From: a virus
Virus record (IMG/VR): IMGVR_UViG_3300032116_000883
Location: 1-31,413 of that record
Reading direction: 5' to 3' (one strand)
DNA length: 31,413 bases
Shown: positions 3,283 to 31,174 of the stretch, one piece after another
Position numbering within the stretch: position 1 is the first letter of the stretch
How the letters are laid out: each line of letters starts with the position of its first letter
The notes under the pieces: generated by a model
What the model saw: the letters and a program-made list of their open reading frames with translations, nothing else
Database searches by the model: none
Told to the model about the DNA's origin: nothing
Made by a program: the position numbers and the translations under genes

Positions 3283-3555
3283 ATGAAATATGATTTAACG
3301 AAGTTCGGAAAGATAGCAGAAGGCTGGACAAATTTTGTTTTTCAATCGAAAAACGTCCAGGAGCTCGCAGAGGTGAGAGCTAAAATATGCTCTACATGCC
3401 CATTCATCAAAGAAATGGTTATCCCAATAACCGGCATGGACTCAATCAAAGAAGCACGAGGAATGTTCTGCTCCAAATGCGGATGCCCCGTATCAGCAAA
3501 GGTAAGAGTTGTAATGGAAGAATGCCCATTGCCAGAACCAGATAAAAAATGGTAA
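3283..3555 (+). CDS. Zinc-ribbon-like small protein before TerL
   Basis: This 90-residue protein has two CxxC-type knuckles: ICSTCPF near residue 38 and FCSKCGCP near residue 63, followed by a further cysteine in EECPLPEPDKKW. The arrangement fits a small zinc ribbon. The C-terminal CPL...KW ending resembles small phage zinc-binding proteins I recall from Bacteroidota phages, whose function is unknown to me. It is the first gene of the rightward block, with a -7 box 4 bases before its start, and TerL starts 1 base after its stop. A role in packaging or DNA binding is inferred from this position only. Confidence 0.75.
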   Translation: MKYDLTKFGKIAEGWTNFVFQSKNVQELAEVRAKICSTCPFIKEMVIPITGMDSIKEARGMFCSKCGCPVSAKVRVVMEECPLPEPDKKW

Positions 3556-14662: not shown

Positions 14663-17600
14663 ATGAAACAAGAACACCAAAAGTGGCATGTTAGCTCATA
14701 TTACACAGGGGCAAATACTGCTGATGAAAAAGAAATAGTTGGGTCACAAGCTATGACTGGAGAGTTTATTGAAGGTAGAAATGCTCGAATAGGCTCATCG
14801 GAAGGTAACAATAAAACCAGCGAAAAGATTAAAGGTGAAGAGCTTTTATATCCAGCTACATCTGTAGGAAACTACACATGTATGGGGTCTATAGGTGTTA
14901 ATGGTAAGCTATTCTCCGTGTGGGCATCACCAGTTGGAGGACAGGACCCATACTTCGAGATTGATGGATTAAAGGTGTGCCAAAGCAGCTCGCTTGATAT
15001 TAATGTGAATTATCCGATACAGCTTGATAAGAATGAAAATTCTTTGGGCGGGGAGGTGTTTATCACAGACAATCGAGTAGAGCCTACATTCTACAATATT
15101 GACGACCTTTACAATTCTGTATTCGGTGATCCTACAAAATACTTCTCAGCATTCAATCCAAAATTATACTCAATCAATCTGTACGTTGCAATGAATATTC
15201 CTGTTTATGTAGGAATAGCAAACGTTGGAGGAGGAGGCGGATTGCCTGTTGGAACATATTCATATCAATTAAGATACTCTAGTAATCAAGGCGACAAGAC
15301 TAATATAAGCCAAAGAACACCACTTATACCGATATTTGAGAATATGTCGGATAGCAGCGCTCAATATCCAGGAACTAAAACGTATGGAGATGAGGCTAAT
15401 ACAGAGTCTAACACGCGATACGGAATAAGAATAAGATTCAGAATAACCAATTTAGCTGGATACGATTACGTTGAAGTAATCAGAACGGCCTACAATACAA
15501 ATGGTGGAATAGGATTCGTTCCTGCTCCAACGGTAGTTGCGAAGATTGATATTTTTGACGGGGAGATTTCTGTTAGAGATTTCGTTGACCCTGTTGAATC
15601 AAATGTAAATACAGTACTCTCTGATGCGGAAGTTACAAGAGAGCTATCATTCGTAGAGAAGGCTAAAAGCTTGAGATACTTCGATAAGCGACTAGAACTT
15701 ATGAATGTTAAGCTTGCATCTAAGGCTTCCAACCTTGTGTTTAATCAGCTTGGCGGGAAAGAGATGTTTCCCGTAATAGATTCTATCGGAACTAAAGGAT
15801 ACAAGGATCCATATAATTTCGTTTATAGAAAAAAATACACCAATGGTGAGCGATTCGGATTCGCTGTTAACCTTTGGGATGGCGTAGGAGGAAAAGGATT
15901 CGCTGAGAAAGTCACAAACTTTGAGAACTACAAATTTCCAAACAGGAGAGATGTGGTATCGGCAGAAACATCACTATACTCATACGGGAACACCGTAACA
16001 ACAACTGATGTAAACAATAATCTTAGCGAGACGCATGAGGTATTTGACCACTTTAGTGCTATAAGCAAGACGGATAAGTGTTCATTTAAAAACATTTACC
16101 ACAATAAAACATTAAGTGCAGTATTCGGAACAAAGATTGATGGAGCTCCAGGCGGGGTAAATAGTATTTGTAGCGAAACGCCAGGAGAGATAATTGCTCA
16201 TGGCGCATCGATGTTTCCTGGCCCTGTAGTAGGTGGTACAGTGTCTCCATATTATCATCCATACACTCCAACATCACAAGTTGACCAAGATGTAGAGAGC
16301 CATAACTATGTTGTGAATACGCAGGTAGCTAAAACATACACATACCTTGTAGGCTCTGTTAACCCTCCAGCAGGAACTCGCGAGGACTATAGCCCTAAAA
16401 TATTTGCTCCAGAGTACTATGCAATGGGGATAGGTTTAGCCGGAGTTTCAAATTTCCCATCATGGGCAAAATCATTTTCAGTAGTTAGAACACCTCCAGC
16501 AAAAAGAGTTATTGCCCAAGGGATAGCTATGTATAAAATGAGTCAAGCTGACTTCCGCATGGGCTTCAACAATAAGCTTACAACAAAAAGCCTTGACGAA
16601 TTTTTATTCTTCTCGCCAGACATTGAGAATGGAATTGTTAGTGGGTCAATCATAAATGATATTATCGAATCTCCAGGCGGATATTCTTTACAATTTGTAT
16701 CTCCGTTAGGATTCGCTTCCGAAGTTTATTCGTTTGAAGCAAATGAATTTGCGGCTCCTGGGCTTGAGATTAAAGACAGATGTATCGACATGATTTCTTA
16801 TGCTAGAATGCAGAGAGATATCGTTGGACCAACAGGTTGCGAAATCAATCCAATGGAAGACCCTGGAATGGGATACAACTTTGGAGCGTACAATTATGTT
16901 GGATACGCCAAATGGAGAAACAGAGGTCAGCAACCTACAACATTTACAGGCCCTAATGCTGGGAATACAGAGTTTGGAATATTGTCAGCAGAGAGAATTA
17001 TCGAGGGGCGTGGATCGTACATGTCAATAAGAATGGCAAACAATCTTTATGGAGCAGGCTCTGTCGGTGGCGTGTTTGCTGCTGACTTTGACGATGCTGG
17101 AATGCAAGATTGGACTGAGCCATTTTACATTGTAAACATCATTTCTTCTGGTGCTCAAATACCAGACAGAAATATTGAGAACTATCAGATTACAGACCAC
17201 TACCAAAAACTTGAGTCAATCATTGGTGAAGGCAATGGATTATCAACACAAAAATTTATCCTTGTTGACGAAAGATGGGAAGATGTTATCCCAGCTTTAT
17301 CATCATCACACCCAACAGCTACAACAGAAAGATACATATACATAAAAAGATATGGCTCTAATATTGAAGAAAAGTGGGTAAACGTAACATTTAAAACAGC
17401 TCCTCAGCTTGCAGCGATATTGAACGATATCGCAACACTTGGGGCTTATGCTGGAGATATTACAGGAGTTTATACTCACGAAGATATCGAAGGTAATGGA
17501 AGATTCTTTAACATAATCTTTGGTGCTGCAGCTCCATTTGTTCCAAACCCGAAGGATCAGGTTATCGTAAAATACGACAACACGGCTCCAATAAGATTAT

Positions 17601-19252
17601 GGGGAGGAGATGCATTTGTTGGAGAAACAATATTTGCTCCAATAGACAGAGAGGCTAGCGCAAACAGCGAAGCAACAGTTCCGCTTTTGTCTAGTAGCGG
17701 CCCAGAAAACCAGTTCCAATTCGGTATAGGATTTCCATACCGAATGTTCCAAATGAACCCAAGGGTTTATCAAATTGTGAGAACTGTACCTGGAGCTATT
17801 CCAAATGTTATACAGGATAGGAATTGGGGGTATTTAGCATACCTTAGACAGCTTTGCGTGATGTTTTGTGTTGAGAGTAGAGTCGGTGTTCCGTTTGCTC
17901 ACAACAATCAGAGCCCATCACAAAGCTTCCCAAATATGCATTATGTTATGAGGCCTCTACGATGGGACCCTGACAAGAGCTTAGCAGATAATAACATTTA
18001 TTCAGAGTACTCTAAAGATTACGGAACAGACGAAATGAGCCTATGGAAGTGGGGAGGATTTAGATTTATTCAAAACATAAATCCGGACTACTCATCACAA
18101 GCGCCATTAGAGTTTGTATCTAAACCTAAGTTTGGATTCGTTGAAAAGAACGATTTCCCGACAAGGGTTATGTGGTCAATGCCTAGACAAATCAATAGTC
18201 AGGATAATCCTGGATTAAGAACATTCCCTGCAAATAATGCTTTCGATATTGATGACAATCAAGGAGAAATCAAAAGAGCATGGTCCGCAACCACGGAGCG
18301 CGGGGAGAACCTTTATGCATTGTGTGATAGTGGAGTATGCTTACTTGTAACAAAGAAGTCAATACTATCAGACCTTAACGCAGGAGACCTTGGGTATATG
18401 GCTGCCGACACGTTTATTCGTGAGCAGTACTGGCTATCAAGAGATATCGGTATATCTGACGAAATGTGGAGAGGTGCTGCAGAAGCATCTGTTCCTGTAA
18501 CGCTACAGAATGGTGCAGAGGTAAGAAAAGAAGCTATCTTCTTCCCAAGTAAAGAGTCTGTATTCAGATTAATGGATAATCAGATTCTTGATATTGGACG
18601 TATAAAATATCACAATACCTTATACAAAAAAGTATTAAGCAATATTAAGGCAGGATTCCAAACGCCTATGGCTGGATATTTCGATAACTATCATCAGGAA
18701 TACGGTTTATTCACAGACGTTAATGACGGTGAAAAAACTCCTGACCCTTCGTTGATACGCATGCATATTTTTGGACAAAAAGAAGGTCGATGGTATGGTT
18801 ATTACGATTACGCATTTGACCAATTTGTATCAATAAGCAACAAATCTTTTGGCCTTAGAGATGGACAAACATATCAGCTTGACAAAGGGTACAAGATTAA
18901 TGGACAAAACATAACGTACCATGTGTGGCAAGCTGCAGCTCCAGAGCCATTCAACGATAAGGAATTTATTCGTGTTAGAATAAACACTAAAAACGAAGAG
19001 AAGCCTTACGCTGTAGTGTTCTGGGATAAGTTTGACGGAGTGCCTATTTGTGCATTATCTCAGGTAACGCAAGGGCCATTATACTTGAAAATGTACCGAG
19101 GGTGGGAGCAATTTATCCCTAGCAAAGACATTTCTATTAGCCCAACAAAAGATAGAGTTCAAGGAAGATGTTTGATTTATTCAATCATCCACAATAAACC
19201 TACAGACTTTGTTTTAATCGATACAGGTATTCAGTATAAAATTTTAAAATAG
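14663..19252 (+). CDS. Giant tail nozzle or muzzle protein (1529 aa)
   Basis: The 1529-residue protein probably forms the distal tail tube. Near the start it carries KWHVSSYYTGANTADEKEIV and then EFIEGRNARIGSSEGNNKTS, recalling the beginning of T7-type tubular B/nozzle proteins, where an early segment states the number and source of values laid out by a beta-propeller. The rest is overwhelmingly strand-rich with many Gly, Asn, aromatic and Pro residues. There is a Gly-rich turn (NVGGGGGLPVGTYSYQLRYS) near residue 190. Length and position match the large muzzle or tail-hub proteins of crAss-like phages, about 1500 residues. It is the longest gene of its unit, and its stop is followed at once by a hairpin that carries the next promoter. 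No enzymatic domain is evident. Confidence 0.75.
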   Translation: MKQEHQKWHVSSYYTGANTADEKEIVGSQAMTGEFIEGRNARIGSSEGNNKTSEKIKGEELLYPATSVGNYTCMGSIGVNGKLFSVWASPVGGQDPYFEIDGLKVCQSSSLDINVNYPIQLDKNENSLGGEVFITDNRVEPTFYNIDDLYNSVFGDPTKYFSAFNPKLYSINLYVAMNIPVYVGIANVGGGGGLPVGTYSYQLRYSSNQGDKTNISQRTPLIPIFENMSDSSAQYPGTKTYGDEANTESNTRYGIRIRFRITNLAGYDYVEVIRTAYNTNGGIGFVPAPTVVAKIDIFDGEISVRDFVDPVESNVNTVLSDAEVTRELSFVEKAKSLRYFDKRLELMNVKLASKASNLVFNQLGGKEMFPVIDSIGTKGYKDPYNFVYRKKYTNGERFGFAVNLWDGVGGKGFAEKVTNFENYKFPNRRDVVSAETSLYSYGNTVTTTDVNNNLSETHEVFDHFSAISKTDKCSFKNIYHNKTLSAVFGTKIDGAPGGVNSICSETPGEIIAHGASMFPGPVVGGTVSPYYHPYTPTSQVDQDVESHNYVVNTQVAKTYTYLVGSVNPPAGTREDYSPKIFAPEYYAMGIGLAGVSNFPSWAKSFSVVRTPPAKRVIAQGIAMYKMSQADFRMGFNNKLTTKSLDEFLFFSPDIENGIVSGSIINDIIESPGGYSLQFVSPLGFASEVYSFEANEFAAPGLEIKDRCIDMISYARMQRDIVGPTGCEINPMEDPGMGYNFGAYNYVGYAKWRNRGQQPTTFTGPNAGNTEFGILSAERIIEGRGSYMSIRMANNLYGAGSVGGVFAADFDDAGMQDWTEPFYIVNIISSGAQIPDRNIENYQITDHYQKLESIIGEGNGLSTQKFILVDERWEDVIPALSSSHPTATTERYIYIKRYGSNIEEKWVNVTFKTAPQLAAILNDIATLGAYAGDITGVYTHEDIEGNGRFFNIIFGAAAPFVPNPKDQVIVKYDNTAPIRLWGGDAFVGETIFAPIDREASANSEATVPLLSSSGPENQFQFGIGFPYRMFQMNPRVYQIVRTVPGAIPNVIQDRNWGYLAYLRQLCVMFCVESRVGVPFAHNNQSPSQSFPNMHYVMRPLRWDPDKSLADNNIYSEYSKDYGTDEMSLWKWGGFRFIQNINPDYSSQAPLEFVSKPKFGFVEKNDFPTRVMWSMPRQINSQDNPGLRTFPANNAFDIDDNQGEIKRAWSATTERGENLYALCDSGVCLLVTKKSILSDLNAGDLGYMAADTFIREQYWLSRDIGISDEMWRGAAEASVPVTLQNGAEVRKEAIFFPSKESVFRLMDNQILDIGRIKYHNTLYKKVLSNIKAGFQTPMAGYFDNYHQEYGLFTDVNDGEKTPDPSLIRMHIFGQKEGRWYGYYDYAFDQFVSISNKSFGLRDGQTYQLDKGYKINGQNITYHVWQAAAPEPFNDKEFIRVRINTKNEEKPYAVVFWDKFDGVPICALSQVTQGPLYLKMYRGWEQFIPSKDISISPTKDRVQGRCLIYSIIHNKPTDFVLIDTGIQYKILK

Positions 19253-19309: not shown

Positions 19310-20101
19310 ATGGCTTTTCCTTGGCAAAAAATGATGGGCAAGATAGGCAACAGAGCTGGTTCCGCAGTAGGAGCAGCAACTGGAGCTGTTCAGTTATTAA
19401 AAGCTAGAGGCTTAAAGAAAGCAGCAGAAGAAAATACTCCTTCGGATGTTGATCCTATGCAAGGAGCTTTTCTTGCTGAGTTAAATCAAAAACGTAACGC
19501 ACTAAATTCTGGTGCTCAATACTCTTCATCGATAGATGCAATAAACGACAAAATGATGTCTACGCAAGGCGCATTATCTACCAATACTGGTGGTGATGTT
19601 GGTGGAACCGTAGCAGCTATGTTGAAAGCTCAGCAAGCAGCTAACCAGGGCGTAGGCCAATTGTTAGCGCAAGGGCAACAAGGTGAACAGTTTAACAACG
19701 GAATGTACGGAGATTTTCTTGACAAAGTAGTTGGAAGACGTATGGAGCTGGGGCTTTTACGCAGAGGTCAAAATATGGCTGAGTGGGCACAGAAATCACA
19801 AACAGGCGCAGCTAATCTTATGGCTGGAGCACAAAGCTTTATGGATTTTGGTGGTGGCGACAAAGCTGCTACAAACCCTATTGCTGGGAAAAACGCAAGC
19901 TCAGCACCAGTTGCAACTACAGAAACAGAAACTATAGAAACAGAACAAGCTCCTGCAGCATCTGAGCCAGCTCCTTCAACAGAAGATGGGTCAGCAGAAT
20001 CGTCTAACGGAATGGGAGGAATCTCTGGAATGTTAGGTAAGTTCAAAGGTGGCGGAGGAGGTGGTTTCGATATGTCAAGTATAACCTCAATGTTCGGATA
20101 A
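19310..20101 (+). CDS. Putative internal virion (ejection) protein, 263 aa
   Basis: This protein starts MAFPWQKMMGKIGNRAGSAV and continues GAATGAVQLLKARGLKKAAE, a Gly- and Ala-rich amphipathic N-terminus. The middle is helical and rich in Gln, Ala and Met (TVAAMLKAQQAANQGVGQLL). It is followed by a Thr-, Glu- and Pro-rich linker and a Gly-rich tail (GKFKGGGGGGFDMSSITSMF). This layout is typical of small podovirus internal proteins such as T7 gp14, which leave the capsid with the DNA and insert in the cell envelope. Membrane activity is inferred from composition only. It begins the unit that continues with the 591- and 1900-residue genes. Confidence 0.65.
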   Translation: MAFPWQKMMGKIGNRAGSAVGAATGAVQLLKARGLKKAAEENTPSDVDPMQGAFLAELNQKRNALNSGAQYSSSIDAINDKMMSTQGALSTNTGGDVGGTVAAMLKAQQAANQGVGQLLAQGQQGEQFNNGMYGDFLDKVVGRRMELGLLRRGQNMAEWAQKSQTGAANLMAGAQSFMDFGGGDKAATNPIAGKNASSAPVATTETETIETEQAPAASEPAPSTEDGSAESSNGMGGISGMLGKFKGGGGGGFDMSSITSMFG

Positions 20102-20105
20102 GAGT

Positions 20106-21881
20106 ATGGCGAAGAAATCAGCAGAACAACTTATCGAAGAAGAATTTCCAGCAACAGGAAACGAAACTCCGTTGACGGATATTTCATTAACACAAACATT
20201 GATCGGTGATGGTCCATCTCCTGACGATGTTGGCATTAACCCTAATCAAGATAAGGTTGATGTGCTTGCCCAATTTAAAGGGCAGGCTAATCCATTATAC
20301 CCGTCAGACATCGTTCCTTCATACGAACAGAAATTACAGTCAGATATTGACGCTTATGCGGGGGCAATCCCAGCGCAAGCATTCTCTACATATTTCCCTT
20401 CAATGACTAACGATATTCAAAAGGGTTCGTACTCTGGAAGAATAATCGGGAACAATCCAATATACGCTCCATCGGCACTTATGCCGTTCGGACTTATTGA
20501 CGCAAGACAGAATGCATTGAAGGCTGCTGCTAATAAAAAAGCGCTTGACAATGCTGCTAAGGCTAAAAAGTTTCAAGAGCTAACCGCTCCTCCAACGACA
20601 GAGCACAAAGCTGTTCAACAGGATTTACAGAATAATTTTTACACATGGTTGGCTGATGCACAAAAGAAAGCTAAGGATAAGTATCCAGGCAAAGATATGT
20701 ACTCAGCGCTAATGGATGACCCTCAATTTAGTAAGGAGTTAAACTTCTATAAAAATTTAGGTGAATACGAAACACAATTAGTAAAGCAAACAGCTGAAAT
20801 CCAAGAGGGGATAAAAACTGGTAAGTATGCTGAAACACCATTCATACGCAAACGTATTAATGAAATTTATACCGGTCAACACGGAATGCTTTCTGAGGCA
20901 CTAAACCCAGAAGGGTATCAAAAAGCATTACAGCAATTTAACCTTGCTCCCGTATTTGACTTGCTTGAAACATCTAAGGCTGCGGCTAAAGATATACAGT
21001 ATGATGTTTTTGAAGGCATGGCAAACATTACTCCTCAAGAACAGTACGATATGCTTACCTCTACAAAAACTGAAAGTGTTGCAAAAAAGCGCCTTGATGA
21101 CATTGTAGAGCAGACCTGGAAATCAAGATATGAAGGCAAGGAAGATTTATTAAACTTCACAAAAGCTGATCTTCGTGATGCTATCTTATCTAATTTTGCG
21201 GTTAAAACAACAACAACAACTCAAACGGCAAGTACATCTGCTGGAGGCGGAGGTTTAAACTTTAAGTTTGACCCTAACGCTGTTGAGCAAGAAACAAAAG
21301 TTATCAACGCTACAGGTACAAACGCTAACGGAAACGTAAATATTAAGCTTGATATTCCTACCGAGGACGGATACACTATGCCTAAGAAGATTACGGCTAA
21401 ATTATCTACGGGAGCTAAATGGTTCGATGTTGGAGATTCGCAGGGAGGAAATGTACCATTGAGTAAAACTTCTGGAGTAAAAGACGTTGACCTCTCTGAG
21501 ATAAGAAACTTCCCAATGAAAAACGGAAAGATTCTTGACAAGAAAGCATTAGCTACAGCTATTGCAAATAAGGAAGCCGTAGAGTACAAAACATTCGCTG
21601 TAGGAAGTTTTATGGGTGACGAGTCAACATCTGACGGATACAAGCAAAAAACTGTTATCATCCCTATCGAAGAGGTTAAAGGAGCTATAGAGCAACGCGA
21701 CCCTCAAGGTAAATTAATTAAAGGTGTTGATACAAAATACTACGAAGAAAAAGCTAAAAGCAGAAGCACAAAAGCTGCTGGCAAATCTTACACAGAAAAG
21801 CAAGAAGCTTTAATCAAAAAGAATATGGCTGCTAATCCAGACTATTCAAGAGAAGAAATTATTAACGCATTAGGATATTAA
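20106..21881 (+). CDS. Putative internal virion or cargo protein, 591 aa
   Basis: This protein starts MAKKSAEQLIEEEFPATGNE. Its first 130 residues are proline-rich and extended, followed by a long helical region from about 140 to 330 and a strand-rich region after a poly-Thr/Gly linker (KTTTTTQTASTSAGGGG). It ends with a helix-loop-helix-like segment (SYTEKQEALIKKNMAANPDY then SREEIINALGY). I recall similar C-terminal segments on phage internal proteins but cannot name the domain. Its start lies 4 bases after the previous stop, and the next reading frame starts 2 bases after its own. It probably works with its neighbours as DNA-ejection cargo; no enzyme motif is seen. Confidence 0.65.
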   Translation: MAKKSAEQLIEEEFPATGNETPLTDISLTQTLIGDGPSPDDVGINPNQDKVDVLAQFKGQANPLYPSDIVPSYEQKLQSDIDAYAGAIPAQAFSTYFPSMTNDIQKGSYSGRIIGNNPIYAPSALMPFGLIDARQNALKAAANKKALDNAAKAKKFQELTAPPTTEHKAVQQDLQNNFYTWLADAQKKAKDKYPGKDMYSALMDDPQFSKELNFYKNLGEYETQLVKQTAEIQEGIKTGKYAETPFIRKRINEIYTGQHGMLSEALNPEGYQKALQQFNLAPVFDLLETSKAAAKDIQYDVFEGMANITPQEQYDMLTSTKTESVAKKRLDDIVEQTWKSRYEGKEDLLNFTKADLRDAILSNFAVKTTTTTQTASTSAGGGGLNFKFDPNAVEQETKVINATGTNANGNVNIKLDIPTEDGYTMPKKITAKLSTGAKWFDVGDSQGGNVPLSKTSGVKDVDLSEIRNFPMKNGKILDKKALATAIANKEAVEYKTFAVGSFMGDESTSDGYKQKTVIIPIEEVKGAIEQRDPQGKLIKGVDTKYYEEKAKSRSTKAAGKSYTEKQEALIKKNMAANPDYSREEIINALGY

Positions 21882-21883
21882 TT

Positions 21884-22195
21884 ATGCCAGAAAGAAAGCC
21901 ATTAAGCTTAATAAAAGACGATGATTCTAACGGAGAAAAGAAACCGTTAAATTTAATTACTGATATAGACGCATCTTCTGAAACAGTAGATGCAAAAAAA
22001 AAATATACCTACTACTCAATCAGCAGCTCCATTCATGGATTCTGTTCAAGAGCCTACAAAGCCATCGGAAGTTGGTGGGGTAACACCAGAACAGCCATTA
22101 TGGGTAGATCCGAGTTTAAAGTCGACATCGCCTTCGGCTTCTTCTACTTCCGCGCCTGGAATTTCTATATCGGGTGGATTAGGAAATCAAAGTAA
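21884..22195 (+). CDS. N-terminal piece of the giant cargo protein, out of frame past an A10 run
   Basis: The ATG lies 2 bases after the previous stop, the normal spacing in this operon. The first 40 codons look like a real protein start, with a duplicated motif: KPLSLIKD and then KPLNLITD. After the A10 run (21994-22003) this frame turns into a Trp-, Phe- and Tyr-rich sequence unlike its neighbours and stops at 22195. The +1 frame in the same region gives a normal linker that runs into the 1900-residue ORF. I conclude that only the first 39 or so codons are used as such, joined to the long ORF by a one-base skip. The full fused product would be 1935 residues. A separate 103-residue protein is much less likely. 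Confidence 0.6.
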   Translation: MPERKPLSLIKDDDSNGEKKPLNLITDIDASSETVDAKKKYTYYSISSSIHGFCSRAYKAIGSWWGNTRTAIMGRSEFKVDIAFGFFYFRAWNFYIGWIRKSK

Positions 22196-25100
22196 TCAAC
22201 AACCAATTGTTGAAAATCAGAATACTCCTAAGTATGACTTATCTAAGTTGTACGACTTTAATGCGCCACAAAAAACGCCAGAGCAAGTATCTGCCGAAAG
22301 AGCTATTGAGTTAAGAAAGCCAGAAAAGGTTAAGCTTGCAGAGCAACGTATTAAAGACGTTGATACTAAGATTGTTGATATCTCAAGAGAGTGGAATAAA
22401 ATTGAGCAGGCAGCAATAAAACAGGCTGAATCATATCAAGGGTTAGTAGACCAATTTAACGACCCTATGACTCCTCCTGAGTTAAAGCAACAGCTTTCCG
22501 AGAAAGCGAAGCTTATGGAGGCGGACAATAAATCAATCCTTGCAACATACGAAGACGTAAAAAAGAGGGCCGCAAAACTTCAAAGTGCAAAGTCAACACT
22601 AAATAAAGTGGGTGATGTGTACGATAAGTTGTCGATGGACGAGAACGATGATGCATTGAAAGCAACCGGACTTTTCCTTGATAAAACATATAACGCACTA
22701 ACAGGCGTTATCGGTGGAACAGGAGCCATGATTAAGTCGGCAGGTGACGTTATGGGATTCACTGAGCCATTGGAAGCTACAGCAAACCTTATTGAAGAGA
22801 AGCAAGGAAGGGCTGCCGCTAACGCATTCAGAAAAGAAAAAGGCATAGGAAGCCAAACATTTACAGATATACTTGGAGATGGGCTTATGGATGCTTCGGC
22901 AGACCTAAAAGCTGATATTAACGAAAAGTACGCTGACAAACATTATGTTGTTAGTACCCTTGGTGAGATAACTGGTAGCATCGCTGCTGCTGTTATACCT
23001 GGAGTTGGTGCTGCAAGTAAGATTCCAGGTATCGTGTCTGGAGCTATGCTTGGCGCTGACCAAGTGTATTCAACTGCTGAGCAAGCTGGATTAACAGATA
23101 AAGATGCTGGACTAATGACACTTACATTGGCTCCAATTCTTGGGCTCGTAAACTCATGGGGAGCAAAAGGTATTATTGATGCTACAGCAGGGAAAGCTTT
23201 TATAAATGAGGTTGTTAAAACCTCTATAAAGGATCTTGCGGGGAAGACTGTATCAAAAGAGTTTATGACAAGCTTACTATCTACCAACATAAAAGAGGTA
23301 GGTAAAAAGTACGGAGCGATAATGCTTAACTCAGCTAAAGAAGAAGGGTTAGCAGAAGGGCTAGAAGCAGAGATTACGTCAGCTGCAGAAAATATTTACG
23401 ATGTAGCTAAAGGTGAAGAGAAATACAAAACAGACTTCTTCTCCGCTGAGACACAAAAGAATGCTGCTATGAACGCAGCTTTAGGCGCTGCTGCAGGTAC
23501 AGCTTTTTCTGGACTTGGAGCATTATCTGGAGATGTTAAGAATAAAAGATTTACAACAGGCCAATATGAGCAGATAAAAAACATATCATCATCACCAGAC
23601 ATGATGAAGAAGTTTACTGATATGTTGAAGACTGAGATTGACGCAAACCATATCACGCAAGAGCAAGCTGACAATATTGTAAACAATGTTGACGCTATCT
23701 CAAAGATTGATAAGGAGATTCCTGATACAATCAAAAACACTCAGAAGCGCATGGATGCAATAGAATTGCTTCGTGAAAGAGCTGAGCTTGAAAAAGAAAT
23801 CGAGGGTAAGGATAAGTTTGTATCAGCACCGCAAAACGAACGCATAAAAGAGATTAATCAATCTCTTGAAGCTATTGCTAAAGGGAAAAGCACTATCGAT
23901 GTGAAGGATGCAAAAACGGGGGAAGAAGTTAAAAAGCCTATCCTTGAAAAAGGGTATGAGTATAATGCTGTAACCGATAAAGCTGGAAACAAATACTACA
24001 CGCAGACAGACAAGAGGTCTGGCGAAGAAACATTTATTACCGAAGAAGAATTTAATAAAGGTAAAGGAATCGTTGTAGAGCCAAAGGTTGAAGCCGCTGC
24101 CGAAACGGTGAAGGCTGAGCCTAAAGTTGGAGATACAACAGAATTACCACCGCAAATTGAAGGTGCACAGCCACGTAAAATGGTGTTCACTAAAGATGGC
24201 TGGATGCAGGAAGTTGGCGGAGAGCCTACTAAGGTTGGAGCTATTCTTCAAGAGCAAGCAAACTCAAAGTTTATGGAGACAGCTCCAGACGTTGTAGTTG
24301 AAGCTAAGGTAGAAGAGAACGCCCCTTTAGGAGGCGAGCCTAAGCCTGTTGAAACACCTCCAGCGACACCTATCGAAACAGTAACGGAAGAAGACGTGAA
24401 GGATGAGGAGAGAAACACTCGTTCCGTATGGAAGCGTGTGCTTGAAAATTCCGGTGACGAAGAGCTTAATAAGGGCCTTGAAGCCGAAGGGGTTGATTAT
24501 GTTGTAAAGAAGGAAGGTTTAACAAAAGATGCAGCAAGAAAAGTTCTTGACGGAGCAATCGAAACAAATACCGTAGCCGATTTAGAAAAGGTTATTCTTG
24601 ACGACAAAAACAAGATGGATCGCACAACGCGAGGGGTTTTATCTGCAATGGTAGGTAAACATTTCTTCGACTTAATGAACGGTGCAGAAGATTTCGAAAC
24701 ACGATCAAAATATTCAAAGCTTCACTACAAATACATTAATAGAGCAGCTGAGTTAGCTACCGAAGGTGGTCAGCAAGGTAACGCTATTGGTAAGGTTATA
24801 AAGGAGATGTATGCTAACGATGAAGATTTTCTAATAAAAAATCTTGAGGATAAAATGAATGAAGCAAACGAAACGAAGCTTGATCCTCACAAAGAAGCTA
24901 TCAAGACTACTTACGAGCAAATTCAGTCTATCCTAAAAACTCCAGAAGGGGAGCAGGCAATAAGCGAGGAAATTGAAAAACGTGCCGAGTCATTATTCGG
25001 TAAGGAAACGCAAAAGAAAATATCTACCTTCTTTGATGATATAATAAAAGGTATTGACGATAGCGGAAGAATGTATTCGTCAGTCGTTCCAATATCTCCA

Positions 25101-27692
25101 GCTGTATTAAAAGCTGCTGTAAAGTCAATTAAAGAGGCTGCATTACTTGGAGCTAAAGGAGCTGCGGCTATAGAGGCTGGAATCAAATATATTAAAGCCA
25201 ACCATTCAGGAGCATTTAATGAAGATAAGTTTCGTGCTGACATGGAGTCTAAAATGAGAGCGTCAGGAATCAAGTTTGGCAAGAAAAAATCTGTCACTCC
25301 CAAACAAACAAAGTCAATCCTTGATGCTATCGAGCAAAAGGCAAATAGATTGAAGCCTGAGAATAAGAAAAAGTTCCTTGCGGATATTGTTCAAGAAGTT
25401 GAGCAGGAGGGCGGATTGACAGAGGATAGATTCACCGAAATGTATTCCGAAGCTCTTGGATTACCAACAATGAATAAAGAGCTTGCGGAGAGACTAAAAG
25501 GGTACGCTAAAATTATTAACGATGGAGAGAAAGCTGAATCGAAATATAAAGGTATCCTAAGAAAATTGTCGGAAGCGAGAAGCGCTAATGATAATGCATC
25601 GATGAAAAGCCTTGAGGCTGAAAAATCTCAAGCATTATCAGAAATGAATAAAGCTGTTCTTGAAGCTAAAAAGGCAAACGAGGAGATAAGTATATTATTT
25701 AAAGGTAACAAAAAGTTGTCTGATACCTTCATAGGCATGATGCAACTTGGGGCGTTAACCCCAGGGTCAATCGTTAAGAATATTTCTGGTATGCCTATTG
25801 AATTAGCAATCAGAGCGCTATCAGCAAGAGTGGAAACACCAATTTACTACATACTAAAAGGATTAACAAAAACTGGAATGCTTAACGAGAAGTGGGCGGA
25901 GAAAACATCTGCACCTCAAGCAAGAGCTGTAGGAGCGTTTCTTGCTCACCCAAAAGCATTACGCAAATTCTACGAAGCTGTTGTTAACGGAAGTCTTGGT
26001 GAGGATTATAATGTTAGAGAGTCACACAACTCTATAACTCCGCTTAGGGCCGCTAAGAACTTACTTAATGGATCGACAAAAGGAGACCGTTCAGCATTTG
26101 CAGCAAACCTTCTTGAGGCTCTTCCGCAAGGATATATGGCTGCATTTATGGGTAGAGCACTTGCCGGTCCTGACGCATTCTTTAGAGGCGTAGCAGAAGC
26201 AGCAAAAGCTTACGAGCTTGGAACAATGAAGGGCCTTCAAAACGAGGAGCTTGAATTATTCATGCTTGACCCAGACCCAGAATCTCAAAAGAAGATAGCT
26301 AGAGCTGGTGATGAGGTTACGTTTCAGCAGGATAATATTGTTACATCAATGATTAGTGGTGCCAAGCAGGGAGCTAAAAACTTTGCTGAGAAAAATAAAA
26401 CGGTTGATAGCGTTAAAAATTCTCCACTAATGTCGATTGCTAAAGTGGTAGCGAAAACACAGATGCTTTACGTTAAGACTCCAACGAATATTTTTGGAAG
26501 AGTACTTAAAACGATAATGCCAGAGATATCTATTGGAGAAGCTGCTATAGCCGCTAAAAATGGTGACGTAGAGAAGTTTACTAAAAAGATGTCCGAAGCG
26601 TCCGTAGGCTACGCATTCAGATTTATAGCATACTCCTTACTTGCGGCAGGTCACGTTGAGCCACCATTGGAAGATAGAGATGAGAAGCTTAATCTTCAAA
26701 ATGACCCTGACGTAAAACATGCGGGGAAAATGAATATCAGCGCAATTGGTAGAAAGTTTGCATTTCAAGATGAAACGCACAGAGATACCGATGTTTGGGT
26801 GGATTATATGCAATGGCTTGGCTCAGGAGGAATCGCTTTAGGTTCCTATGCTCAACTTTACAAAGATATGCCAAGAGATGAGTTAGGTAGAAAATCATTT
26901 ATTGCTCCAACAAACGCATATCAAATGTTACCAGCTGCAGCGCGTAGCGTAATGGACTTATCATTCATGCAGGCAACCGGTGAACTTATGGATGCATTAA
27001 GAGATGAAGATAAAGCTGTTAAGTGGGGAGCAACAACCATTGGAACACTTGGAACACCAATTGTACCAAACACTGTTGGCAATATATCAAAAGGGTTAAA
27101 CGACTCTAAAAAAGAGGTTCGTGACCCTAACCTTATCAATAAAGTAGTGAATGATTTCAAGTACAAATTATTTATGGGGGGGCAGCTTCCGTCAAAGGTT
27201 AATTTGTGGGGAGAAGAAGTTGGAACAACGCCAGAAGGTAAAGGATTAGGGTATTACCTATTTAACGTAGCTAAGCCTGAGAATCCTGACGAGAACTCTA
27301 TCGGATACAAGATTGCTGAGCTTTACGACAGAACAAAAGATAAACGCGTAGTGCCAGAGCTTCCGTCAAATGAGATCACGATACGAAAAGTTAAAGTGCC
27401 TCTTACTGCAGAAGAAACAGAAACACTTCAAAAGTTTGTAGGTAAGCAACGAGCTTCGTTAGTGGCTGCGTATATCAAAGCTGGAGAATTTAATAACCAG
27501 GATGACAACGATAGAGCTCAGACGCTAAGCAATATCTATAACGAAGGAAAGAAGGTTGGAACAAAAATGTTCACCGATTCATCTGACAGAATAAATGCTC
27601 TTGACCGTGACATTCCAAAACAAAAATCTGGCGGGATAAAGAAGGATGGTAAGCCTAAAAAGCCAACAAAACCTAAGAAGCCAACTTTTTAG
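21990..27692 (+). CDS. Giant internal/cargo virion protein (1900 aa; 1935 if fused)
   Basis: This is the longest gene of the window. After a Ser-, Pro- and Gln-rich linker (about 1-70) comes a long helical, Lys/Glu-rich region. Gly- and Ala-rich hydrophobic stretches follow near residues 317-400 (GSIAAAVIPGVGAASKIPGI, LAPILGLVNSWGAKGI) and near 490-515 (NAALGAAAGTAFSGLGALSG). Then there is a coiled-coil-prone centre with acidic Glu/Thr/Pro linkers. Around residues 1244-1294 the motif LGALTPGSIVKNISGMPIEL resembles large-polyvalent-protein-associated segments of phage internal proteins. The C-terminus is Lys- and Pro-rich (KDGKPKKPTKPKKPTF) and could bind DNA. No lysozyme, protease or polymerase motif was recognised. 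By size, position and membrane-prone stretches it matches ejection proteins such as T7 gp16 in role, or crAss-like cargo. The ATG at 21990 is probably not the true start; see the preceding 40-codon piece. Confidence 0.75.
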   Translation: MQKKNIPTTQSAAPFMDSVQEPTKPSEVGGVTPEQPLWVDPSLKSTSPSASSTSAPGISISGGLGNQSNQQPIVENQNTPKYDLSKLYDFNAPQKTPEQVSAERAIELRKPEKVKLAEQRIKDVDTKIVDISREWNKIEQAAIKQAESYQGLVDQFNDPMTPPELKQQLSEKAKLMEADNKSILATYEDVKKRAAKLQSAKSTLNKVGDVYDKLSMDENDDALKATGLFLDKTYNALTGVIGGTGAMIKSAGDVMGFTEPLEATANLIEEKQGRAAANAFRKEKGIGSQTFTDILGDGLMDASADLKADINEKYADKHYVVSTLGEITGSIAAAVIPGVGAASKIPGIVSGAMLGADQVYSTAEQAGLTDKDAGLMTLTLAPILGLVNSWGAKGIIDATAGKAFINEVVKTSIKDLAGKTVSKEFMTSLLSTNIKEVGKKYGAIMLNSAKEEGLAEGLEAEITSAAENIYDVAKGEEKYKTDFFSAETQKNAAMNAALGAAAGTAFSGLGALSGDVKNKRFTTGQYEQIKNISSSPDMMKKFTDMLKTEIDANHITQEQADNIVNNVDAISKIDKEIPDTIKNTQKRMDAIELLRERAELEKEIEGKDKFVSAPQNERIKEINQSLEAIAKGKSTIDVKDAKTGEEVKKPILEKGYEYNAVTDKAGNKYYTQTDKRSGEETFITEEEFNKGKGIVVEPKVEAAAETVKAEPKVGDTTELPPQIEGAQPRKMVFTKDGWMQEVGGEPTKVGAILQEQANSKFMETAPDVVVEAKVEENAPLGGEPKPVETPPATPIETVTEEDVKDEERNTRSVWKRVLENSGDEELNKGLEAEGVDYVVKKEGLTKDAARKVLDGAIETNTVADLEKVILDDKNKMDRTTRGVLSAMVGKHFFDLMNGAEDFETRSKYSKLHYKYINRAAELATEGGQQGNAIGKVIKEMYANDEDFLIKNLEDKMNEANETKLDPHKEAIKTTYEQIQSILKTPEGEQAISEEIEKRAESLFGKETQKKISTFFDDIIKGIDDSGRMYSSVVPISPAVLKAAVKSIKEAALLGAKGAAAIEAGIKYIKANHSGAFNEDKFRADMESKMRASGIKFGKKKSVTPKQTKSILDAIEQKANRLKPENKKKFLADIVQEVEQEGGLTEDRFTEMYSEALGLPTMNKELAERLKGYAKIINDGEKAESKYKGILRKLSEARSANDNASMKSLEAEKSQALSEMNKAVLEAKKANEEISILFKGNKKLSDTFIGMMQLGALTPGSIVKNISGMPIELAIRALSARVETPIYYILKGLTKTGMLNEKWAEKTSAPQARAVGAFLAHPKALRKFYEAVVNGSLGEDYNVRESHNSITPLRAAKNLLNGSTKGDRSAFAANLLEALPQGYMAAFMGRALAGPDAFFRGVAEAAKAYELGTMKGLQNEELELFMLDPDPESQKKIARAGDEVTFQQDNIVTSMISGAKQGAKNFAEKNKTVDSVKNSPLMSIAKVVAKTQMLYVKTPTNIFGRVLKTIMPEISIGEAAIAAKNGDVEKFTKKMSEASVGYAFRFIAYSLLAAGHVEPPLEDRDEKLNLQNDPDVKHAGKMNISAIGRKFAFQDETHRDTDVWVDYMQWLGSGGIALGSYAQLYKDMPRDELGRKSFIAPTNAYQMLPAAARSVMDLSFMQATGELMDALRDEDKAVKWGATTIGTLGTPIVPNTVGNISKGLNDSKKEVRDPNLINKVVNDFKYKLFMGGQLPSKVNLWGEEVGTTPEGKGLGYYLFNVAKPENPDENSIGYKIAELYDRTKDKRVVPELPSNEITIRKVKVPLTAEETETLQKFVGKQRASLVAAYIKAGEFNNQDDNDRAQTLSNIYNEGKKVGTKMFTDSSDRINALDRDIPKQKSGGIKKDGKPKKPTKPKKPTF
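21994..22003 (+). other. A10 homopolymer, probable frameshift or slippage site
   Basis: Ten A residues follow GATGC. Removing one A joins the 21884 frame (D-A-K-K) to the long ORF (N-I-P-T-T). The run is long enough for polymerase slippage to make A9 transcripts. An assembly or sequencing indel is the simpler alternative. Confidence 0.6.
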
Positions 27693-27723: not shown

Positions 27724-27731
27724 TACTTTTG
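27724..27731 (+). promoter_or_regulatory. -7 box (TACTTTTG) of the tail-fibre operon
   Basis: TACTTTTG lies 6 bases before the ATG at 27738, so the first fibre mRNA should be leaderless or nearly so. A TTG at -33 is absent; the region is AT-rich. Confidence 0.55.
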
Positions 27732-27737
27732 TAAGCA

Positions 27738-28307
27738 ATGGCGACAAAAACTAAAATAGCGATAAAGGAAGAAGAAAACAGTCTTATCATACAAGAATGT
27801 ACTGGTAAAATATCTTCCGACAATCCTTACGGGTGGGGACACCCAAATGCTAAGTTGTCAAACGTAACATCTTGCGTATTTGAAATATACAAGCCTAACG
27901 CTACAACACCTGTTATTTACAACGCTTTTCCTGATTACCCTACTGATGACACTACACTTCAATATGAAGTATTAACATCAGCTATGGGGTTAAACTACAT
28001 GGAGAGCGGAGTATGGAGAGTTGGCATGCGTACAGCAGGAACGCTAGATAACGGAATGCCATTTGAATACTACTGCGAAACAAAAGAAGTATTTGTAAAA
28101 CACGCAGAATGCTGCGTAGACAAACTAAGAGCTAGAACAGCTAATATACCACCGAACGCATTAATGAAAGATTTAAGAATGAAATCTGCGGCTGAATTAT
28201 CAGCATTAATTACTACAGTGAAATGGGCCAAAGGAAAAGGCGATTTCAATGTAGCGCAAACAAAATTATCATTCATCAACCTACAGTGTCAAAACTGCTG
28301 CGGGTAA
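27738..28307 (+). CDS. Unknown tail-region protein with a cysteine-rich C-terminus
   Basis: This 189-residue protein starts MATKTKIAIKEEENSLIIQE. The first 120 residues look like a beta-sandwich, with CTGKISSDNPYGWGHPNAKL and GVWRVGMRTAGTLDNG. A helical segment (NALMKDLRMKSAAELSALIT) leads to the end INLQCQNCCG. Cysteines stand at 21, 46, 113, 125, 126, 184, 187 and 188. The CxxCC end directly precedes a gene beginning with a CxxC...CCC motif. I recall proteins with a similar GWGxPN segment in Bacteroidota phages near tail genes but not their function. It heads the fibre operon and may be a fibre-attachment or adaptor protein, by position. Confidence 0.72.
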   Translation: MATKTKIAIKEEENSLIIQECTGKISSDNPYGWGHPNAKLSNVTSCVFEIYKPNATTPVIYNAFPDYPTDDTTLQYEVLTSAMGLNYMESGVWRVGMRTAGTLDNGMPFEYYCETKEVFVKHAECCVDKLRARTANIPPNALMKDLRMKSAAELSALITTVKWAKGKGDFNVAQTKLSFINLQCQNCCG

Positions 28308-28320
28308 AAATCTATAAACA

Positions 28321-28965
28321 ATGTGTAACATCTGCCACAAGACAGTATGCTGCTGCGAAAAAAGAATTTCTGTATTAGGTAAAAAAGGGGACCCTGGATC
28401 CATAGGACCAATTGGCCCTACTCCTGTAGTTGCAGCCAAACTTAACTTTTACGAAGAGAAAATCTCTGCCGTAAACGTTAAAGATATGGCTAGTCCTAAT
28501 ATTTACGGCTTTCCTACAGGCTACAACACTCTAACGTACACAAATACGTCTGGCGTATCAAAGGATTTTATCGTGCATGCAGCTTACGATCATAAGGCGG
28601 AGATAAACTCAAACAATCAAAAGATTGAGAATTGGGTAGATGGAGCAATCGTTAAAACTGTTTCTGCTGTTGATACTGTTGAGTACGGAAACGTGGATAG
28701 GATAGATGTTGAAGCTTCGTTGTTTGATGGACTTTTAGTTGGAGACGCAATCAATATTGCTACACCAGCGCCAAACAATGTTACTACAGCTGCTCCAAAC
28801 CCTGTTGAATTTAGATTCATCACATACGAGCACGCTAAAAATGTAGCTATGTTTAAAAAGGTTACATTGCTTAACGGAGAGTCGGTAAGCTTGAAATTCA
28901 AAACAAAGGACAATACTACGCCTTCTCAGTTATTGAGAGCGCAAATATTTGTTCAAGAACTTTAA
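28321..28965 (+). CDS. Fibre-like protein with Cys-rich N-terminus and collagen-like stretch
   Basis: The 214-residue protein begins MCNICHKTVCCCEK, with Cys at 2, 5, 10, 11 and 12. Five collagen-like Gly-X-Y triplets follow from residue 20 (GKKGDPGSIGPIGPTP), a common trimerising stalk in phage fibres. The rest is strand-rich, ending in SLKFKTKDNTTPSQLLRAQI. It is a plausible trimeric fibre or adhesin subunit. The N-terminal cysteine spacing (C-x2-C-x4-CCC) is identical to that of the next gene, although the bodies of the proteins do not look related. The cysteines could bind zinc or another metal, or form disulphides. The receptor is unknown. Confidence 0.75.
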   Translation: MCNICHKTVCCCEKRISVLGKKGDPGSIGPIGPTPVVAAKLNFYEEKISAVNVKDMASPNIYGFPTGYNTLTYTNTSGVSKDFIVHAAYDHKAEINSNNQKIENWVDGAIVKTVSAVDTVEYGNVDRIDVEASLFDGLLVGDAINIATPAPNNVTTAAPNPVEFRFITYEHAKNVAMFKKVTLLNGESVSLKFKTKDNTTPSQLLRAQIFVQEL

Positions 28966-28976
28966 AATAAAAGACT

Positions 28977-29666
28977 ATGTGTAATAAATGCGGAAAAGTG
29001 AATTGCTGCTGCAGCCCTTGTGATGAGACTTCAATGAAAGCTATACGCAAGGAGGTAGACAATTTATATCAAAGTATCGAAACGCTTAATAATGCTACAA
29101 GATTCCTTACAAAAGGACATCCAATTATTGCGTTAGAAGATGCTGCTGATATTGTATTGTTTGACCCTGCTACAGGAAAAGGCTCCGGAATATGGGTCGG
29201 CTGGGGAGTATGCAATGGAAATAATTATCCTTCACCAATAGGAAACATCGCAACGCCAAACTTGGCAGACAGATTCTTAGCAGGTGTTGGAGGTTCTTAT
29301 GTTGTTGGAGCTCAAGGAGGAGCGAATACGGTTATTCTTTCTACGGCTGAAATGCCAACACATACACATGCACTTACTGACCCAGGACATAATCACGGAG
29401 TTACTGACCCAGGGCACACGCATGTTGCAACAGAAACGACACACATACACTCTGGACAGGTAGATGTTCCTGTAACGACATCTGTAGTTAAAGCAGCAAC
29501 GCCAGCAACGGCAGCGCCAGGGTCAATATCTATAGCTAGCGATAACACTGGAGTGACAGTTAATTCTGCAAGCACAGGCGTTACGATAGCGAACGAAGGA
29601 GGGTCAACGGCTCACGAGAACAGACCTCCTTACCATGCTGTATTATTTGTTAAAAAGATATTTTAA
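28977..29666 (+). CDS. Tail-collar domain fibre protein with HxH repeats
   Basis: This 229-residue protein begins MCNKCGKVNCCCSPC (Cys 2, 5, 10, 11, 12, 15), then a short helix and a collar domain. The collar family signs are PNLADRFLAGVG (94-105) and the end AHENRPPYHAVLFVKKI. Between them are four HxH motifs at 129, 138, 147 and 156, exactly nine residues apart. They lie in repeats such as HTHALTDPG and HNHGVTDPG. In T4-type fibres such HxH motifs bind metal ions along a trimeric needle, so a receptor-binding tip is likely. A Thr/Ala/Ser-rich stretch follows the histidines. It shares the N-terminal Cys tag with the gene before it. Confidence 0.85.
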   Translation: MCNKCGKVNCCCSPCDETSMKAIRKEVDNLYQSIETLNNATRFLTKGHPIIALEDAADIVLFDPATGKGSGIWVGWGVCNGNNYPSPIGNIATPNLADRFLAGVGGSYVVGAQGGANTVILSTAEMPTHTHALTDPGHNHGVTDPGHTHVATETTHIHSGQVDVPVTTSVVKAATPATAAPGSISIASDNTGVTVNSASTGVTIANEGGSTAHENRPPYHAVLFVKKIF

Positions 29667-29669
29667 GAT

Positions 29670-30035
29670 ATGAGTTTAAGCTCTAAAATAGAAGACGCAA
29701 AAACATGCGTTTCAAAGTTTGCCGAGAGATACGTTAAAGCGGTTACGTTTGGCGTAGATACCGATGATCTATTTTACGAGCTTATGCTTCTTGTTGGGTA
29801 TGTAGAATCGCTTGAGAGATACGAGTGTAACCCTACTAGAAATCTAACAACTAGAAATCTTTTAACTTATGAAGATTTTTTATTAACAGATAACAATAAA
29901 ATATTATCTTTGGGCGACACTTGCGAAACCGTATGTCTTGACCCTGATGAAGTTAACTGCTTATCGAAAGATGAAGTTTGCTTTATTTTAGAACAGATAT
30001 CATTGAAGTGTGAATCATGCTCCTGCGGGTGCTAA
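29670..30035 (+). CDS. Small cysteine-rich protein with CxxCxCxC terminus
   Basis: This 121-residue protein starts MSLSSKIEDAKTCVSKFAER. The N-terminal half is helical. There is a tandem five-residue repeat (TRNLTTRNLL) encoded by two copies of CTAGAAATCT. Ten cysteines occur, at 13, 53, 85, 89, 97, 104, 114, 117, 119 and 121, the last four as CESCSCGC at the very end. Such density is unusual for a phage protein of the cytoplasmic type. The gene begins 3 bases after the collar protein's stop. I do not recognise the family; it may cap or link the Cys-tagged fibres, but this is inference. Confidence 0.72.
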   Translation: MSLSSKIEDAKTCVSKFAERYVKAVTFGVDTDDLFYELMLLVGYVESLERYECNPTRNLTTRNLLTYEDFLLTDNNKILSLGDTCETVCLDPDEVNCLSKDEVCFILEQISLKCESCSCGC

Positions 30036-30047
30036 TAACATAAAGAC

Positions 30048-30191
30048 ATGCCAGAAAGCGTACCAACACAAACAAAAGAGATTAAAACGGTGGACATTGT
30101 TACATCGTTGAATCCAACCGATTATATACTAGCTATCCAAAACGGAAAGCTTGTAAAAATAAAAGTTTCAGACCTTAAAAAAATAGTATAA
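30048..30191 (+). CDS. Small 47-aa fibre-linked protein
   Basis: A 47-residue frame starts MPESVPTQTKEIKTVDIVTS. Its second half (LNPTDYILAIQNGKLVKIKV then SDLKKIV) follows a pattern I recall from the start of many phage tail fibres: a segment ending in a hydrophobic-xx-NG-xxx-K-h-xh-SDL turn. The gene is 12 bases after the previous stop and shares a TAATG junction with the next start, so it is translated in the operon. It has no cysteine, unlike its neighbours. The function is probably a fibre adaptor or N-terminal docking module made as a separate peptide. Confidence 0.65.
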   Translation: MPESVPTQTKEIKTVDIVTSLNPTDYILAIQNGKLVKIKVSDLKKIV

Positions 30192-30556
30192 TGGCTAGAG
30201 AAAAAACAGATTATAGCGCATACGCAGATTATGCTAAGTTGCTAAAAAAGAAATGTCAAGAAGAATCATCTTCTTCTAGCGGGTGTAGTGATTGTTCTGG
30301 CGGATGTTCAGATTGCAATGACTGCAGCGATGAAAAGTGTGGATGTTGTCCTGCGGGCCTTGTAGCTGTAGAAGATGCTAACGGTAATCATATTGGATGC
30401 TTAACCCCAAATGATGCTCAGCTTTACATGACTGACACATACAAATGCCCTGACGGTTACATTCGTGTAACAAGCGGAACAGGAGTATCAATGATATTTA
30501 TCGGTTGTTTAACACCTGCTGAATATGCTGTTTATGTAGCAGCAATCCCAGCTTAA
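30191..30556 (+). CDS. Cysteine-rich protein with a duplicated module
   Basis: This 121-residue protein has twelve cysteines. Residues 22-53 contain nine of them with Ser, Asp and Gly between (GCSDCSGGCSDCNDCSDEKC). The C-terminal two thirds hold a duplicated module: C53-P-A-G-L-V-A-V up to IGC70LTPNDA, and C86-P-D-G-Y-I-R-V up to IGC106LTPAEY. Each module is about 27-30 residues with a tyrosine near the end. I know no family with this layout. It follows the 47-residue gene in a TAATG overlap and precedes the BIG2 protein by 15 bases. It may be a disulphide-rich or metal-rich virion ornament. Confidence 0.75.
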   Translation: MAREKTDYSAYADYAKLLKKKCQEESSSSSGCSDCSGGCSDCNDCSDEKCGCCPAGLVAVEDANGNHIGCLTPNDAQLYMTDTYKCPDGYIRVTSGTGVSMIFIGCLTPAEYAVYVAAIPA

Positions 30557-30571
30557 TAATATAAAAAAGAT

Positions 30572-31174
30572 ATGGCATTAGAAAACAATATAGCGATTGG
30601 AGCCCCAGGGTCCATCACTACACCACCAGCAGGAGAAGTTACACGCTTCTTTAATACTGATTATACACCAGCACAGCTTTGGTACAAAGACGAGAATGGA
30701 GACATTTTTATCTGGCCAGAAACAGCAGAAGATGCTGATTGCTGCGCTTGTGAGATAGCTAAAAACTTAGCAGAGAAAATGGCTTGTAGCTTAGCGTCAG
30801 GTATGATTACTGCTGCCGAGTATCAAGCAATGGTAACTCTTGGAGTTTCTGTAATAGCTAAAGAAACTACAGATGTTTCTGGAAACAAAACATGTGAGGT
30901 TGGAATCAGCCCAGCATTTGTTGCTGCAACAGCATTGTCAACAAACCCTTCTGTTATCAACCCGTTGGCTGTAGGTAGCCAAAATGTTATAATACCAACG
31001 GTATTACCTGTTAATGCTACATTTAAGCAAGTGGTATGGACTTCATCAAACCCTACTATTGCGACAGTAGACTCGAATGGAGTTGTTACTGGAGTTGCTG
31101 CAGGTACTTGTACTATTACATGTACGCATGTTCTTGGAGTATTAACTGATACAACTACCGTTACTGTAGTTTAA
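30572..31174 (+). CDS. Fibre-type protein with a C-terminal BIG2 (Ig-like) domain
   Basis: The 200-residue protein begins like other phage fibre starts: GSITTPPAGEVTRFFNTDYT then LWYKDENGDIFIWPE. A cysteine group follows (DADCCACEIAKNLAEKMAC). From about residue 128 to the end is a bacterial Ig-like group 2 domain: LPVNATFKQVVWTSSNPTIA, TVDSNGVVTGVAAGTCTITC, ending TTTVTVV. BIG2 domains on virions commonly aid adhesion to surface glycans or mucus. It is the last fibre-type gene before the membrane protein at the right edge. No enzymatic domain is visible. Confidence 0.82.
   Translation: MALENNIAIGAPGSITTPPAGEVTRFFNTDYTPAQLWYKDENGDIFIWPETAEDADCCACEIAKNLAEKMACSLASGMITAAEYQAMVTLGVSVIAKETTDVSGNKTCEVGISPAFVAATALSTNPSVINPLAVGSQNVIIPTVLPVNATFKQVVWTSSNPTIATVDSNGVVTGVAAGTCTITCTHVLGVLTDTTTVTVV

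Follow-up and report, generated by a model that had tools for sequence, protein, structure and literature searches.

We examined six genes, g1 to g6, at positions 27738 to 31174 of a 31,413-base stretch of DNA (here called the window) from virus record IMGVR_UViG_3300032116_000883. The genes start at 27738, 28321, 28977, 29670, 30191, and 30572, all on the + strand, and form a compact operon that encodes two tail fibers with cysteine (Cys) clusters at their N termini. The operon products contain 49 Cys in 1074 amino acids, versus 0 in the 2754 amino acids of the three proteins encoded immediately upstream. The features of the operon are as follows.

27738..28307, +: g1, putative hub-like protein with a beta-sandwich, a C-terminal helical hairpin, the Cys tail QCQNCCG, and a conserved C125-C126 pair
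28321..28965, +: g2, collagen-like tail fiber with an N-terminal Cys tag (PF01391 in its family; tag conserved, body diverged)
28321..28362, +: Cys tag of g2, MCNICHKTVCCCEK, residues 1-14, holding 5 of the 5 Cys of g2
28977..29666, +: g3, collar-type tail fiber with HxH repeats (THTH, GHNH, GHTH, THIH) and an N-terminal Cys tag
28977..29021, +: Cys tag of g3, MCNKCGKVNCCCSPC, residues 1-15, holding 6 of the 7 Cys of g3
29670..30035, +: g4, small helical protein with the disordered Cys tail CESCSCGC (12 homologs)
30191..30556, +: g5, Cys-rich protein with an invariant CGCC motif (12 homologs)
30572..31174, +: g6, DCCAC protein with a C-terminal Big_2 immunoglobulin (Ig)-like domain (PF02368, 4.7e-11)

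Cysteine clusters at the fiber N termini

The Cys of g2 lie at residues 2, 5, 10, 11, and 12, with none in the remaining 202 residues (hypergeometric p, 4e-6), and those of g3 lie at 2, 5, 10, 11, 12, and 15, with a single other Cys at 79 (p, 1e-6). The translations thus bear out a preliminary description of this DNA, which had reported the same C-x2-C-x4-CCC start in both genes, the ending CQNCCG in g1, and the ending CESCSCGC in g4. Its two further operon members with dense Cys are g5, with 12 Cys in 121 amino acids, and g6, with the DCCAC motif.

Two relatives, L002 and L044, carry the same operon, and most of their products are about 45 to 60% identical to those of the window. A search with g5 added nine contigs, eight of them viral and one from a Kordia metagenome-assembled genome (MAG), which brought the set to 12 genomes including the window; two further scans with g5 sub-alignments gave no new genomes. 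Across the 11 relatives, the identity of g1 is 23 to 49%. The 12 genomes hold 26 fiber genes, and we found 99 Cys in their 520 N-terminal residues versus 26 in 5277 body residues. At least three Cys fall within the first 20 residues in 21 of the 26 fibers. N-terminal and terminal Cys clusters, whose co-occurrence the preliminary description had looked to, are found together in the same operon in the 12 genomes. Since the same operon with clusters is present in 11 diverged relatives, the clusters are under selection. A chance origin of the clusters was considered and is ruled out by their conservation across the 12 genomes.

The C-x2-C-x4-CCC spacing common to g2 and g3 is peculiar to the window genome, and paired fibers of relatives start with MSCKKCKQQKCCCCEK and MGNCCC, MCKSCGKKSCTSCC and MSGNCCNC, or MSNNGCCC and MCKEGCCDC. 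The tag spacing is not kept among relatives, so that although the pattern is real, the exact motif shared by g2 and g3 is a coincidence confined to this genome. The conserved property is the Cys cluster and not any single spacing, and the tag is conserved where the fiber body diverges. Scanning IMG/VR for the exact tag pattern gave seven matches, all in very short frames (18 to 47 amino acids) and apparently due to chance. In isolated phages, for which all of our statements rest on one collection, tblastn with two tags as queries gave weak matches only.

Cys tags recur on three kinds of body (a collagen-like fiber, a collar/HxH fiber, and a small protein), and the earlier claim that one kind of tag sits on unrelated bodies therefore stands. 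The Gly-X-Y collagen family PF01391 was matched in 16 of the 17 members of the g2 family; the window copy went unscored, with too few repeats. The g3 protein, which has four HxH motifs, matches the tail fiber family phrog_8469 (1.6e-35) and, with profile A22, the long tail fiber of PDB 8kec (2.6e-18). These collar/HxH phage fibers resemble the body of g3; in contrast, the fibers of isolated phages match g3 from about residue 75 on and lack the Cys head. The small protein occurs only in two relatives, L054 (6729-6944) and L057 (6723-6908), where a Cys-rich N-terminal part is set on a SAYMFAxxxGELVKI body.

That two neighboring genes start alike could also point to a feature of the DNA, such as a recombination or regulatory repeat, that reads as Cys by accident. 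However, the tag Cys codons (45 TGT and 61 TGC) differ between copies and between genomes, and the spacing shifts by whole codons. Since the tags draw on both Cys codons, it is the residue and not the DNA that is under selection. A DNA-level repeat is excluded by this codon pattern, and we give such an origin next to no credence.

Candidate hub proteins g1 and g4

In the AlphaFold model of g1 (mean predicted local distance difference test [pLDDT] score of 80), helices come after a beta-sandwich, and Cys are located both where this helical part begins and where its final helix ends. C125, C126, and C184 are invariant in 12 homologs and the next Cys is nearly so; three of the seven invariant columns are Cys, and the last ten residues of every g1 in the 12 genomes include three or four Cys. 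When we compared g1 with viral models by Foldseek, the best functionally named match was S0A0T4 (E, 2.3e-5), a structural protein of the Cellulophaga phage phi14:2, which belongs to the Crassvirales. From its length, name, and phage, we infer that S0A0T4 is g087, the sole 186-amino-acid structural protein there. This virion protein, found by mass spectrometry, has a hub-like gene position, and its beta-sandwich, helices, and 2+3 Cys layout are similar to those of g1, with two Cys before the hairpin (108 and 111) and three after it (152, 156, and 159). It differs in that its Cys segment is not at the extreme C terminus and in that the neighboring fiber genes examined lack N-terminal Cys clusters.

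Foldseek also matched g1 to the 206-amino-acid cr111_1 protein A0A7M1RYA1 (E, 2e-3; TM, 0.43), which from its matching length is presumably the cr111_1 homolog of phiCrAss001 gp38. In phiCrAss001, gp38 is tail hub protein A (THA; PDB 7qoj; PF25724) and gp39 is hub protein B (THB; PF25711). The Cys at the helical start (C163) and the terminal CxC (C211 and C213) are invariant among 11 members of the THA family, and g1 shares the trait of a Cys at the hairpin start together with a Cys-bearing terminus. Against PDB folds, the matches of g1 were for the most part generic sandwiches of the Ig/FnIII/PKD type (best E, 2.3e-3), and gp38 was absent from the best 50. Membership in THA aside, the modeled fold leads us to read g1 as a protein that would work like a fiber-docking hub.

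In g4, C13, C97, C114, and C117 are invariant in 12 homologs, and every copy in the 12 genomes has two to four tail Cys. Its model has a pLDDT score of 86, with tail residues 117 to 121 below 50, and a fold search with it gave no significant match. The g4 tail is CxxC only in the three genomes without a collar fiber, and it is CxxCxCxC or close to this where a collar fiber is present. In L052, where the collar tag is lost, the g4 tail has three Cys instead of four.

Of the remaining two proteins, g5 has C50, C52, C53, and C70 invariant in 12 homologs, and the Big_2 domain of g6 is missing in some relatives, such as L044. The preliminary description had placed the Cys of the operon at termini rather than in domains. 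This is so for g2 and g3 and does not extend to g1 (C125-C126), g4 (C13 and C97), g5 (CGCC), or g6, which have conserved internal Cys. Those of g1, g4, and g5 could pair within a chain, as would be expected if unrelated local metal or disulfide sites stabilized each protein alone and the operon merely belonged to a Cys-rich lineage. However, the tags, at 12 to 20 residues, do not form a fold that could be stabilized, yet they occur on all three kinds of body, and we consider this explanation improbable.

Attachment of the fibers

Each docking hub of phiCrAss001 is built from two THA and one THB and receives residues 1 to 26 of the trimeric fiber gp22, and the hubs and rings are disulfide stabilized (PMC10172136). 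The virus of the window resembles phiCrAss001 in having a crassvirus tail with a muzzle, and the placement of Cys in g1 resembles that in THA, which has a terminal CxC and a Cys where its C-terminal helices start. We infer the identity of the hub, docking through the fiber N termini by analogy with gp22, and bonds between the proteins. Our preferred account, which may well be right but which we hold tentatively, is that 27738 to 31174 is a fiber and docking operon in which the N-terminal Cys clusters would staple the trimeric fibers g2 and g3 to a g1/g4 hub. The g1 protein would be a THA-like docking hub protein, probably helped by g4, and the fibers would dock through their first 12 to 20 residues, in the manner of gp22. 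The clusters would bond within each trimer to fix the chain register and would also bond with the Cys at the ends of g1 and g4, so that the fiber would be stapled to the tail; these disulfides would form after lysis. The tag would then be a small exchangeable plug, retained while bodies were swapped or duplicated.

Several observations weigh against this account. Five of the 26 fibers lack a full cluster, with fewer than three Cys in their first 20 residues: the collar fibers of L052 (MSCKSESEK, one Cys) and L056 (two) and three collagen fibers in L053 and L059 (one or two). The preliminary description had held that homologs without the Cys but otherwise intact would speak against a tag, and such fibers do exist in part, while the other 21 keep the cluster; thus, the tag is usual and not obligatory. 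In phiCrAss001, the fiber gp22 has no N-terminal Cys. There is no significant sequence match between the window proteins and the phiCrAss001 hub proteins: the Pfam family crAss_THA (PF25724) was matched in none of the 12 genomes at E 1, whereas the control gp38 scores 1.8e-84, and hhalign of g1 with THA gave a probability of 0.7, no better than column shuffles. Likewise, g4 has no match to the Pfam THB family (PF25711), and hhalign against the THB profile gave 0.8, at shuffle level. The position of the putative hub gene also differs, with g1 located after the cargo genes and not before the ring genes. Finally, the co-variation between the collar fiber and the g4 tail amounts to one event on the tree. 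Because the tree makes it a single change, the pattern is only a hint of partnership.

The same clusters could hold the fibers by means of a metal, with the fiber N termini and hub tails jointly binding a zinc or iron-sulfur cluster in a joint made in the reducing cytoplasm. Virion assembly occurs in the reducing cytoplasm, and an iron-sulfur cluster is present in gpL, the tail-tip protein of phage lambda. Moreover, CxxC and CxC resemble metal ligands, g1 keeps the hairpin pair and the tail, and phi14:2 g087 has CxxC and CxxxCxxC. However, the spacing and number of Cys differ between relatives, and our family searches gave no zinc-binding family matches; we regard a metal joint as unlikely but as a serious alternative. 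The loose spacing and the disulfides already known to stabilize crassvirus hubs lead us to favor disulfides over metal, though not decisively.

A narrower role would be that each cluster forms an interchain cystine knot, like those of collagens and minicollagens, that trimerizes and registers its own fiber, with no bonds to other proteins. The cluster directly precedes the collagen repeats or, in g3, a likely helical stalk, and the C-terminal Cys-rich domain (CRD) of minicollagen is such a trimerizing cystine knot (PMC4863159). The minicollagen CRDs of cnidarian nematocysts are short Cys-rich termini beside short collagen helices, with disulfide trimerization and cross-linking (PMC4863159). 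They differ from the tags in having a fixed CX3CX3CX3CX3CC pattern, found in none of the listed tags, and in passing through an animal secretory pathway; no homology is implied. A role confined to the fiber itself leaves unexplained why g1 and g4 have Cys tails and why these match in their spread, and we judge it distinctly unlikely.

Returning to stapling of the fibers to a g1/g4 hub, the earlier proposal of a docking tag that holds several adhesins on one tail hub survives in part. The tags are selected, they co-occur with g1, which by its fold and Cys tail looks like a fiber-docking hub, and the tails are of the crassvirus type; the tag itself is not required on every fiber. The statement that no such system had been described was too strong, since disulfide-stabilized crassvirus fiber hubs are already known. 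As far as we found, what is new here is the Cys-cluster tag on the fibers, of which a limited literature search gave no description. More generally, a loosely spaced N-terminal thiol tag of about 12 to 20 residues, portable between unrelated adhesins, might join trimeric fibers to Cys-tailed hubs in crassvirus-related phages, either by covalent bonds or by way of a metal cluster held in common, although in this general form the idea is doubtful. If it is true, a short thiol plug would explain how unrelated adhesins share one socket, a simple mode of fiber attachment that the same search did not find described, and its predictions for gels, metal analysis, and cryo-electron microscopy are clear. 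Crassvirus-like phages count among the most common viruses of Bacteroidota, and such a plug would bear on the exchange of fibers with which they follow their hosts.

The virus lineage and neighboring genes

Two features outside the operon bear on its context.

14663..19252, +: muzzle protein, 1529 amino acids (PF25731 crAss_MUZ, 6.2e-9, above cut-off)
27724..27731, +: -7 element TACTTTTG, of the form TAnnTTTG, just upstream of g1

The muzzle protein PF25731 is present in 10 of the 12 family genomes, that is, in the window and 9 of the 11 relatives; the match is missing in L055 (a 24-kb fragment) and L053 (a 69-kb record). Because this crassvirus protein is so widely shared, we take 27738 to 31174 to be the tail operon of a phage related to the crassviruses. 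The match of window positions 13102 to 13827 to CrAss_Ring_2 (6.9e-5, 23 bits) is below the 27-bit cut-off. The portal of the window is P22-like (PF16510) and its capsid protein is SU10-like (PF17236), and tblastn against isolated phages gave no matches for the portal, the capsid protein, g1, g4, or g5. The phage group is one of little-known uncultured viruses of Bacteroidota, related to the gut crAss-like phages. The window lineage is probably related to Crassvirales, with its hub and fiber genes placed behind the cargo genes. The TAnnTTTG form, which we take to be the known Bacteroidota -7 form, was found 12 to 16 bases before g1 in 11 of the 12 genomes. The 16-kb Kordia MAG contig (L059; NVVR01000044.1) is the only family member within a bacterial assembly; as a phage contig might have been binned together with its host here, Kordia is only a suggested host.

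A similar arrangement is found in L034 and L006, two contigs of 125 kb that encode muzzle and ring proteins of crassviruses. In L034 (3751-7822) and in L006, a 190-amino-acid protein laid out like g1 precedes a small Cys-rich protein and two fibers, which in L034 start with MACKDCLINC and MACTNC. Profile comparison of g1 with the 190-amino-acid protein was not significant. The arrangement may be the same idea or may have a separate origin, and the Cys-rich fiber N termini suggest that the plug system is wider than the clade of the window. The adjacent fibers of these two contigs share a CVxYTGP motif.

The three consecutive proteins without any Cys (263, 591, and 1900 amino acids; 2754 in total) are encoded at window positions 19310 to 27692. 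Over 11 genomes, the 1900-amino-acid protein and its counterparts add up to 16,282 amino acids with 2 Cys among them, and Cys may be avoided by proteins that are ejected through the tail. At 3283 to 3555, directly before the terminase, the window encodes a 90-amino-acid protein with six Cys (36, 39, 63, 66, 68, and 81) that matches phrog_13558, a family of unknown function.

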